From Solicola gregarius (GTDB lineage Bacteria > Actinomycetota > Actinomycetes > Propionibacteriales > Nocardioidaceae), in assembly GCF_025790165.1 (NCBI RefSeq), contig NZ_CP094970.1, positions 2,542,001 through 2,606,000 on the forward strand: DNA of 64,000 bases. The letters are read 5' to 3'. The notes under the pieces are model-generated. The model worked only from the letters and a program-made list of their open reading frames with translations. It did no database searches and was not told the origin of the DNA. The translations under genes and the position numbers were made by a program. Shown piece after piece: positions 45,139-47,605 of this stretch. Each line of letters begins with the position of its first letter. Position 1 is the stretch's first letter.

Positions 45139-46473
45139 TCAGGTCGTGGCGGGCGAGTCCGGATCCGACGCCGTCAGGCTGTTCAGCAGTTCGTCGACGA
45201 CGAGCGCGGTCACCGCCGACAGAATGATCACCGGCATCTGGCTCGCCGCGGCGTCGCCCATGAGCAGGACGACCAGCAGGATGCCGGTCACCGGGAGCTG
45301 GGTGGCGGCGGTTGCGGCGGCGGTTCCGATGGCGACGCCGGCAACCGGGTCGATGCCGGGTAGCGCGGTGCTGGCGAGGACTCCGGCGGCGGCGCCGAGG
45401 AAGACGGCCGGAAAGATCAGCCCACCTCGGAACGCGCCGAGGCAGACTCCGTAGCCGATGCCCTTGCACACGAGCAGCAGCACGAGCGCGCCAGCCGACC
45501 ACTGCTCGGGATGCAACGCCAGGTCCCCGAGCGTGGCCTGGCCCGACAGCACCACCTCCTCGGGGCCGTGGTCGGTCACCAGCGCGTAGATCGTCGCGCC
45601 GAGCCCGGTCACCAGGCCGGCAGCGACGGTGATCCGCATCCGGTACGCGGTGGCCAGCGAAGCGACCCGGCGCCCGCAGACGAGGGCCGCCCAGATGCCG
45701 GCCGCGATCGCGGCCGCGACCGGGAGCGTCCAGGCGACGGTTGCCGCATTCAGGGTCGACGACTCGAGATCCGGAATGGTGAGGGCGCCGATCTCCAGGC
45801 CGGTCCAGCTTCCGAGGCCGGTGAACACCACCGCGCCGACACCGCTCGCGACGAGGGCCGGCAGCACCAGCATCGTGGTCCGCCGCCGACCCATGTCGGC
45901 GACCTCGAGGAAGATGATGGCCGCGACCAGCGGGTTGCCGAAGACCGCGGAGATCGCGGCGGCCGATCCGGCTGCCCCGATCACGGCGGACACCTGCGGG
46001 CGATCGGCGGCGCGCGTACGACTCACCGCCAGCAGCGCCAGCCCGCTGCCCAGGGCCATCAGCGGAGCCTCGGGACCGAGTACCGCTCCGAGCGAGAGCC
46101 CGACCGCGGCGGCGATGATCGTTCCTGGCAGCTCGCGTGGGGGAGTGCCTCCCGCGCCCATCCCGTCGGCGGGCACGTGGCCGCCGTGTCCCGGGAGCCG
46201 CGAGATGGTGAGCCCGACGACTACGGCGGCCAGCCCCATCGTCACGATCGGCCACCACGCAGGAACCCCATCGAAGCCGAGCTGGTCGGGCAGCGTGTCC
46301 CATACCAGGTGCTCGAGCTCGTGGACGACGACGAGGAAGAAGAATGCGACGAACGAGAGCGGGATGCCGATGAGCGCGGCGACGAGCAGGATCGCAACGT
46401 AGCCGCGGCTGTGCAGGGCGATCACCAGCTCGGACTCCGATTGGGTCTGGCCTTGGTGAGCGTCCTGCTCCAT
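45139..46473 (-). CDS. ClC-type chloride channel/antiporter
   Basis: The 444-residue membrane protein has about ten to twelve helices. Selectivity motifs are partly changed: GSGxP appears as GMGAGGTPPREL, the usual GREGP as GPEAPLMALG, and GGLIFPAVFLG stands for GxFxP. ClC proteins move Cl- or F-, as channels or H+-coupled antiporters. The gating Glu position in GPEAP is one residue shifted from the classical E148, so the transport mode is unclear. No regulatory domain follows. The start at 46473 is the first in frame. Confidence 0.88.
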   Translation of the reverse strand: MEQDAHQGQTQSESELVIALHSRGYVAILLVAALIGIPLSFVAFFFLVVVHELEHLVWDTLPDQLGFDGVPAWWPIVTMGLAAVVVGLTISRLPGHGGHVPADGMGAGGTPPRELPGTIIAAAVGLSLGAVLGPEAPLMALGSGLALLAVSRTRAADRPQVSAVIGAAGSAAAISAVFGNPLVAAIIFLEVADMGRRRTTMLVLPALVASGVGAVVFTGLGSWTGLEIGALTIPDLESSTLNAATVAWTLPVAAAIAAGIWAALVCGRRVASLATAYRMRITVAAGLVTGLGATIYALVTDHGPEEVVLSGQATLGDLALHPEQWSAGALVLLLVCKGIGYGVCLGAFRGGLIFPAVFLGAAAGVLASTALPGIDPVAGVAIGTAAATAATQLPVTGILLVVLLMGDAAASQMPVIILSAVTALVVDELLNSLTASDPDSPATT

Positions 46474-46560
46474 GACCGAAGGCTAGCCAAGGCCGGGCAA
46501 GCGCGCGGCGACTTGCGCCGATCCGACCTTGCCACGGCCGTATAGTGAGGTCGCCCGCGA

Positions 46561-46604
46561 CAAATAGACATTTGTTGCGCCAGGGCATGACAAATGTCTA
46601 TTTG
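46561..46604. promoter_or_regulatory. Highly symmetric operator upstream of the dehydrogenase
   Basis: CAAATAGACATTTGT (46561-46575) is followed after 14 bases by its exact reverse complement (46590-46604). Each arm is itself CAAAT-N4-ATTTG. The structure sits 36-79 bases before the dehydrogenase start at 46640. It is A+T-rich against its surroundings and lacks a T-run, so an operator pair is favoured over a terminator. No regulator gene adjoins. Confidence 0.7.
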
Positions 46605-46639
46605 GTTCCGGCGCGACGTGCCCAGGAGAGGACACCGAT

Positions 46640-47605
46640 ATGCCCGACCGCGCGCGGCTGCTCGTGCTCGACGACGTCGAAGGTCTGATCGAAGCGTCGG
46701 CGTCGACGCGTCGGATGCGCGAGCTCGCGGACGTACGGTTCCTGCGCGGACGGCTGGCCGACGTCTCGGACGACGAGTTGGCCGACGTACGTGTCGTGCT
46801 GGCGATCCGGGAACGCACGGCCTTCGATTCGGCGACGCTCGACCGGCTACCGGCCCTCGAGCTGATCCTGCAGACCGGCGGTCATGCGTACCACGTCGAT
46901 GCGGACGCAGCGCGTGGTCGCGGCGTCCGGGTCGCGCTCGGTCGCGGAGGCACCGCCGCGAGTGCAGCGGTGCCCGAACTGACCTTCGGGTTGATCATCG
47001 GCTGCATGCGGCACCTGCCGGCGGCGCAACGCGCCATGGCCGGCGGCGAATGGCCGGGGCTGGTCGGGCGGACCCTGCGCGGCCGGCGACTCGGACTCCT
47101 CGGCGTCGGAAGGCACGGAAAGCAGGTCGCACGGGTCGCCGAGGCGTTCGGCATGGAGGTCGTCGCATGGCGACGACCGGGTTCGGCAGCGTCCGACGAC
47201 GGCGTTTCCCGCGTCGACCTCGACACGCTGCTGCGTACGTGCGATGTCGTGTCGGTCCATCTGCGGCTCTCGGACGAGTCGCGTGGTCTCCTGGGTGCAC
47301 GCGAGCTCGCACTTCTCAAGCCTGGCTCGATCCTCGTCAACACCGCCAGGGGAGCGATCGTCGACGAGGTGGCGTTGGTCGACGCGCTGCGCAACGGTCC
47401 GCTGGCCGGTGCCGGGCTCGATGTCTTCACGGCCGAGCCGCTGCCCGTCGACTCGCCCCTGCGGTCAATGCCGAACGTGGTCCTCACACCGCATGTCGGC
47501 TGGACCGTCGAGGAGGTCTTCGAGGAGTTCGCGGCGATCGCCACCCGGCAGCTCGAGGCGTACGTGAGCGGCACGCTCGATCCGACGGAGCTGCTCCATC
47601 CCTGA
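46640..47605 (+). CDS. D-2-hydroxyacid dehydrogenase
   Basis: The 321-residue enzyme has the substrate domain (VRVVLAIRERTAFDSATLDR), the NAD-binding loop RLGLLGVGRHGKQVARVAEA, catalytic Arg in LVNTARGAIVDE, Glu in DVFTAEPLP and His in LTPHVGW. It reduces 2-keto acids or oxidises D-2-hydroxyacids. The close relatives include glyoxylate/hydroxypyruvate and phosphoglycerate dehydrogenases, but no ACT domain is present. ATG 46640 lies 36 bases after the symmetric operator. It ends convergent with the second DHFR-like gene. Confidence 0.9.
   Translation: MPDRARLLVLDDVEGLIEASASTRRMRELADVRFLRGRLADVSDDELADVRVVLAIRERTAFDSATLDRLPALELILQTGGHAYHVDADAARGRGVRVALGRGGTAASAAVPELTFGLIIGCMRHLPAAQRAMAGGEWPGLVGRTLRGRRLGLLGVGRHGKQVARVAEAFGMEVVAWRRPGSAASDDGVSRVDLDTLLRTCDVVSVHLRLSDESRGLLGARELALLKPGSILVNTARGAIVDEVALVDALRNGPLAGAGLDVFTAEPLPVDSPLRSMPNVVLTPHVGWTVEEVFEEFAAIATRQLEAYVSGTLDPTELLHP

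Follow-up and report, generated by a model that had tools for sequence, protein, structure and literature searches.

REPs, in the excerpted account of PMC3733652, are short extragenic palindromes found near the 3' ends of convergent or unidirectional ORFs, where they sometimes give the stop codon, and they are often lineage-specific, with several families present in one genome. The element described here resembles the REPs and REPINs (GTAG- and CGTC-tagged) in being extragenic, dispersed, placed next to 3' ends and restricted to one lineage, and in supplying one stop codon, whereas it comes without a RAYT gene and without an unpaired GTAG or CGTC foot tag, numbers just 21 copies, has neither singlets nor decayed copies, is palindromic inside each arm, and keeps more than half of its half-site columns invariant. 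The NBS and SBS arrays of Noc and SlmA, as outlined in the excerpts of PMC4726725, consist of tens of palindromic chromosomal sites that become scarcer towards the terminus, with NBS being 14-bp palindromes and SlmA binding as a dimer of dimers. The element is similar to these arrays in its number and its apparent origin bias, but it is 46 bp long, lies behind genes and has no extra ParB-family protein, while NBS and SBS are short and their proteins are known. NrdR boxes, located in nrd promoters, are pairs of 16-bp palindromes spaced by about three turns of the helix; the element shares the paired 16-bp palindromes and their spacing and differs in lying behind genes rather than in nrd promoters. 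Like the bidirectional intrinsic terminators, the element is a strong hairpin between convergent stop codons, and unlike them it conserves sequence beyond pairing, has no T-tract in the right flanks of the 21 copies, and occupies divergent gaps in three copies; actinobacterial terminators may lack a T-rich tract. A title and abstract search of a literature collection that leaves most subscription journals outside its coverage found no paper describing the element.

The window copy and its 21-copy family

The window is the whole stretch of 64,000 nucleotides analysed, positions 2,542,001 to 2,606,000 of the single 4,915,757-base contig, a chromosome of about 4.9 Mb. The first-pass annotation had noticed two CAAAT-N4-ATTTG boxes upstream of a hydroxyacid dehydrogenase gene, and both are present, CAAATAGACATTTG at 46561-46574 and CAAATGTCTATTTG at 46591-46604; with at most one mismatch, the box has two matches in the 64-kb window against 0.09 expected, and two matches were reached in 0 of 100 shuffles. 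The reverse complementarity over 15 bases that had been claimed for them holds at 15 of 16 positions once each box is extended by one base on either side, giving box 1, ACAAATAGACATTTGT, at 46560-46575 on the plus strand, and box 2, ACAAATGTCTATTTGG, its inverse, at 46590-46605 on the minus strand. The boxes are joined by the core TGCGCCAGGGCATG at 46576-46589 (YRB-GCC-NN-GGC-VYR, central dinucleotide AG), and the complete 46-bp double-palindromic element, the window member of the family, spans 46560-46605, where the R1 profile matches at 46552-46612 with 63.1 bits and where a purine at 46559 and a pyrimidine at 46606 prolong the consensus. This copy sits in a 166-bp divergent gap, 86 bp from the start of the gene for a ClC-type chloride channel (45139-46473, minus strand, 444 aa; PF00654, 3.6e-24) and 34 bp before the ATG of the gene for a D-2-hydroxyacid dehydrogenase (46640-47605, plus strand, 321 aa; PF02826, 8e-58). 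With these two neighbours, the statement that no regulator adjoins is true of the window copy. No terminator-like prediction was obtained in 46300-46800, and no sigma-70-like promoter match was found near this copy.

Chromosome-wide, the 14-base box occurs 37 times (reversed control, 0) and forms 17 exact box pairs, every one with a 30-bp period; conservation extends to the 14 bases that separate the boxes, and the unit is therefore a 46-bp element present in 21 copies. Allowing up to 3 mismatches, a relaxed pattern of the full length recovered these 21 full elements in the whole chromosome and 0 in the reversed control, and all 21 copies, 46-48 bp in length, were aligned with 10-bp flanks. 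The half-site is 23 bp long, includes the oriented 16-bp box, and has the consensus R-A-C-A-A-A-T-V-G-A-C-A-T-T-T-G-T-Y-R-B-G-C-C, followed by the central dinucleotide and then the inverse, with the boxes head to head and their centres 30 bp apart (about three helical turns). Over the 42 half-sites, 13 of 22 half-site columns are invariant, the 63 deviations cluster in half-site columns 1, 7, 17 and 19 (p < 1/20,000 against a uniform spread), and the element holds about 89 bits of information in all. The GAC in the middle of the box is invariant and its counterpart in the box varies, so the box appears to be read one way, unlike a simple symmetric dimer site. Nine copies have AG as their central dinucleotide and nine have CT, with CG, CA and TG occurring once each, meaning that one asymmetric centre (CT/AG, in either orientation) is common to 18 of the 21 copies. 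This centre makes CCWGG beside the middle of the element, a motif that a symmetric binder does not explain.

The flanks carry no GTAG or CGTC end tag in the 21-copy alignment, the only regularities being a purine at -1 (21 of 21) and a pyrimidine at +1 (20 of 21), and neither a target-site duplication nor shared flank homology was seen around the 21 copies. Solitary halves are essentially absent, as 42 of the 43 half-site matches obtained with one mismatch allowed lie inside the 21 elements. A reading as the terminal inverted repeats of insertion sequences was rejected, as the sole half-site outside the elements has a mismatch. Decayed copies are likewise absent in this genome, where the copies score 68.6-53.7 bits with the R1 profile and the next match scores 12.7.

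Placement, chromosomal distribution and lineage restriction

Genes were called by a simple codon-usage caller and tRNAs by ARAGORN, and flanking genes were named by reading their translations, with ten proteins confirmed by Pfam. All 21 copies are intergenic, one of them reaching 8 bp into the end of a CDS. Gaps between convergent genes hold 13 of them (one counting the tRNA-Arg at L006), five lie in tandem pairs behind one 3' end (L010, L015, L018 behind tRNA-Asp, L020 and L021), and only three occupy divergent gaps (L008, L011 and the window copy), so that in total 18 of the 21 follow a 3' end. In a background sample of 691 kb of the same genome, chosen independently of the element, convergent gaps account for 15% of the intergenic sequence, from which the 13 convergent copies depart with p 1e-6 (p 1e-5 for 12 of 21, when the L006 tRNA is left uncounted), and the centre lies at most 65 bp from a 3' end in 16 of 21 copies compared with 25% of intergenic bases (p 1e-6). 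At L016 the TAG stop codon of a HAD-hydrolase gene is provided by the element. The flanking genes, such as leuA, inositol-phosphate synthase, glmM, upp, transporters and regulators, have no common theme. Judged from this placement, transcript ends rather than starts would be suggested at 18 of the 21 copies.

Two exact parS sites together with parAB and dnaA (genes read from translations) put the origin near 2.007 Mb, and the GC skew changes sign near 2.0 and 4.4 Mb (45 stretches). The copies are nearer to the origin than random points (mean distance, p 0.005), and the origin half holds 16 of 21 (two-sided p 0.027); copies are nonetheless present 2.12 and 2.44 Mb from the origin, and one is found near the presumed terminus. 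An empty gap of 1.42 Mb (p 0.02) occurs on the right arm, at 3.02-4.44 Mb of the chromosome. Right of the origin, seven gaps in a row measure 104-152 kb (coefficient of variation 0.12; p 0.0005 from 4000 simulated sets, and p 0.011, 0.0015 and 0.0018 for runs of 5, 6 and 8 gaps), in a post hoc test of even spacing that was picked once the numbers were seen, and on the left arm the spacing of the copies is irregular.

Among other genomes of the genus, family and order, the exact double box was present in 0 of 57, and the exact pattern had no match in 84,980 GTDB species, a set that possibly leaves out the window's own genome. The inner core was detected in 1 of 340 other family genomes (G328), a match that was taken as chance because the outer arms are missing. 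The profile search turned up a single decayed copy in G001, the sister species (31 of 46 bases, 29 bits), and no convincing match in 56 other genomes, while the gap in this genome that corresponds to the sister's decayed copy has no trace of the element (18 of 46, the chance level). At 19 of the 21 loci, orthologues of the flanking genes were identified in G001, with gene order kept, and none of those G001 gaps has the element, as seen from the profile search over all of G001 and from gap alignments. Gaps of 34, 12, 5, 27 and 37 bp in the sister correspond to 94, 89, 42, 95 and 75 bp here, in a gap-alignment comparison that does not count L010, and gain by copying in this lineage is likely from these alignments, with size differences that are not one clean 46-48 bp. 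The sister gaps at L013 and L005 contain other palindromes instead, and at L014 and L022 a hairpin common to the sister species persists beside the element; replacement of an older terminator is possible at some loci, but L014 and L022 keep the sister-shared hairpin. In G001, the place of the element after the inositol-phosphate synthase gene is taken by a perfect 42-bp palindrome of different sequence (L185:1817-1858), which is single-copy in that genome. A phage origin was rejected, the exact core being missing from viral contigs, and the shorter 14-base pattern, searched for the same question, gave hits with a chance-like look among the matches listed.

Other palindromes were also observed in this genome. 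Within 515 kb, 25 intergenic palindromes with arms of at least 15 were counted, with 10 in convergent (80 gaps), 15 in tandem (294 gaps) and 0 in divergent (74 gaps) settings, and several of these belong to repeated families, including 90-103 bp types with internal direct repeats; another 240 kb of this genome added 4 convergent, 4 tandem and 1 divergent palindrome, and in 260 kb of the sister species the corresponding counts were 5, 4 and 3. The near-perfect palindromes of 90-103 bp (L183:15769-15858, L184:5232-5334, L231:11166-11261, L231:14902-14999 and L242:15443-15543) have in each arm a TGASGAGAGA box repeated directly at intervals of about 22 bp, and several lie between convergent genes. 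A family of perfect 49-bp palindromes with GACGTTCGGGTGGCGACACGC arms was recorded at L184:3127-3209, L226:7917-7965 and L226:9773-9821, with 4 genome copies and 0 in 19 relatives, and two more families with GTTTACCATG or GGATTACCATGG arms occur in tandem and convergent gaps (L216, L221, L222, L226, L229, L016, L017 and L240). Over 975 kb the other palindrome families form a graded series, clearest for B (4 copies in this genome, none in the 19 relatives searched) and C, with D and E differing little from the element, a comparison that is only indicative as the element's copies were gathered on purpose.

Proposed recognition of the element and rival explanations

All five copies that were folded as RNA form a long hairpin, with energies between -21 and -42 kcal/mol. 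Thirteen of the element's 23 possible pairs never vary, paired cells amount to 93.8% against 93.1% for shuffles (a share reached by 66 of the 500), and pair 29/38 is broken in 11 copies out of 21; the number of pair types (reached by 3 of 500 shuffles) and the covariation score (28 of 500) lean towards pairing. An RNA-structure element was rejected, with pairing on the main measure being no stronger than in column shuffles, though the two other measures show some covariation, and no Rfam family was found over the element at the 4 of 21 loci tried. The sequence is held tighter than the pairing and is therefore read here as recognised in double-stranded DNA; the invariant columns, the absent halves and decayed copies and the tolerated hairpin mismatches point to DNA that is recognised sequence-specifically, probably by a pair of dimers 30 bp from each other. 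The unlinked factor with strict symmetry proposed in the first-pass annotation gives the best reading of the conservation pattern; a role of the element as operator of the dehydrogenase and of the box as the mark of a regulon is not supported. In nucleoid-occlusion arrays of the Noc or SlmA type, a dedicated DNA-binding protein contacts FtsZ or the membrane. A Noc-like ParB paralogue was ruled out as the binder, with one ParB_N protein each in this genome (G000) and in G001.

We give about an even chance to the explanation that the element is a lineage-specific double palindrome of 46-48 bp, in 21 copies, read as double-stranded DNA by a putative sequence-specific protein; its copy number, sequence constraint, placement and absence in relatives are established, and from there we infer protein binding, the dimer-of-dimers geometry and an effect of binding. 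Two dimers would lie on one DNA face, about three helical turns apart, and could touch over the GCC-NN-GGC core, the copies would have been inserted mostly into the dead space behind gene ends in the fashion of REPs, and the bound protein would work at the site itself, by marking the chromosome, bridging it or handling the element, rather than as a dehydrogenase repressor. Several observations count against the binder reading. So long a site can hardly have originated de novo 21 times, and the copying that must have taken place speaks for a mobile repeat; the same genome has other palindrome families with the same placement; a symmetric dimer has no need of the asymmetric centre, which agrees with descent from a single ancestor; and two covariation measures lean towards pairing.

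Among the rival explanations, a selfish palindrome of the REP kind, a non-autonomous repeat copied behind genes by a transposase, with an RNA hairpin incidentally serving as bidirectional terminator or mRNA 3' end, is a possibility of some weight, although we lean away from it. The placement agrees with that of published REPs as far as the excerpts of PMC3733652 describe it (3' ends of convergent ORFs, termini as stop codons), including the TAG at L016, and the lineage restriction, the sister's decayed copy at a place that is empty here, the sister gaps of 34, 12 and 5 bp that are 94, 89 and 42 bp here, the strong hairpins in all five copies folded, and the different hairpins of the sister at some of the same convergent gaps are all in its favour. 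However, PF01797 (Y1/HUH RAYT) had 0 matches in G000 and G001 at E<=1, with 10 of 14 control genomes positive, and RAYT-driven mobilisation of the REP type was ruled out by this lack of a Y1 transposase; solitary and decayed copies are missing, compared with the common singlet remnants of REPINs in the excerpt of PMC3116915; no T-tract, no terminator-like prediction at the window copy and no target-site duplication or common flank were seen; and the sister-shared hairpin retained at L014 and L022 argues against terminator replacement there. A recombinase site made of two 23-bp half-sites flanking a mostly non-palindromic central dinucleotide is very improbable. Serine-integrase attachment sites resemble the element in half-site length and in their asymmetric central dinucleotide, conserved here as CT/AG in 18 of 21 copies, but 21 compatible sites in both orientations should rearrange the chromosome, and gene order is kept against the sister at 19 of 21 loci.

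A classical operator, with an unlinked repressor or activator acting on the promoter of the dehydrogenase (and of the ClC channel) and the other copies forming its regulon, has a small probability in our assessment. The window copy in its divergent gap just ahead of the dehydrogenase ATG, the two further divergent-gap copies at L008 (beside a MarR gene) and L011, and the strict symmetry of the element would suit an operator, yet convergent gaps hold neither neighbour's promoter, so that the operator reading fails for the family. The search of the genome for the same box, which had been expected to define a regulon, returned 13 convergent, 5 tandem 3'-end and 3 divergent settings with no common function, no sigma-70-like promoter match lies near the site, and the element is missing at all 32 dehydrogenase relatives' loci checked (of 80 fetched). 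The dehydrogenase-operator claim survives for the window copy alone, and there without support. The boldest reading, a system that organises the chromosome or resembles nucleoid occlusion, in which the 21 elements would serve as address tags for a dimer-of-dimers protein, is possible though rather unlikely; under it, the sites would be clear of promoters, enriched in the origin half and about 134 kb apart on the right arm near the origin. Neither Noc nor SlmA is known in this bacterial group.

We class the element as a new kind of REP-like palindromic family that is most likely maintained by a sequence-specific binder. The prediction of a lone 'orphan operator' can be overturned by a whole-genome view, and the element is a binding site or palindromic repeat that recurs across the chromosome, not a dehydrogenase switch. 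A 46-bp site is near letter-perfect at 21 places in this genome, and the sister species has one remnant only. This leaves two answers, a chromosome-wide binding system of recent date or a palindromic repeat spreading in the absence of the known REP-moving transposase. Either answer raises an easily tested question, namely what factor reads the sequence of the element.
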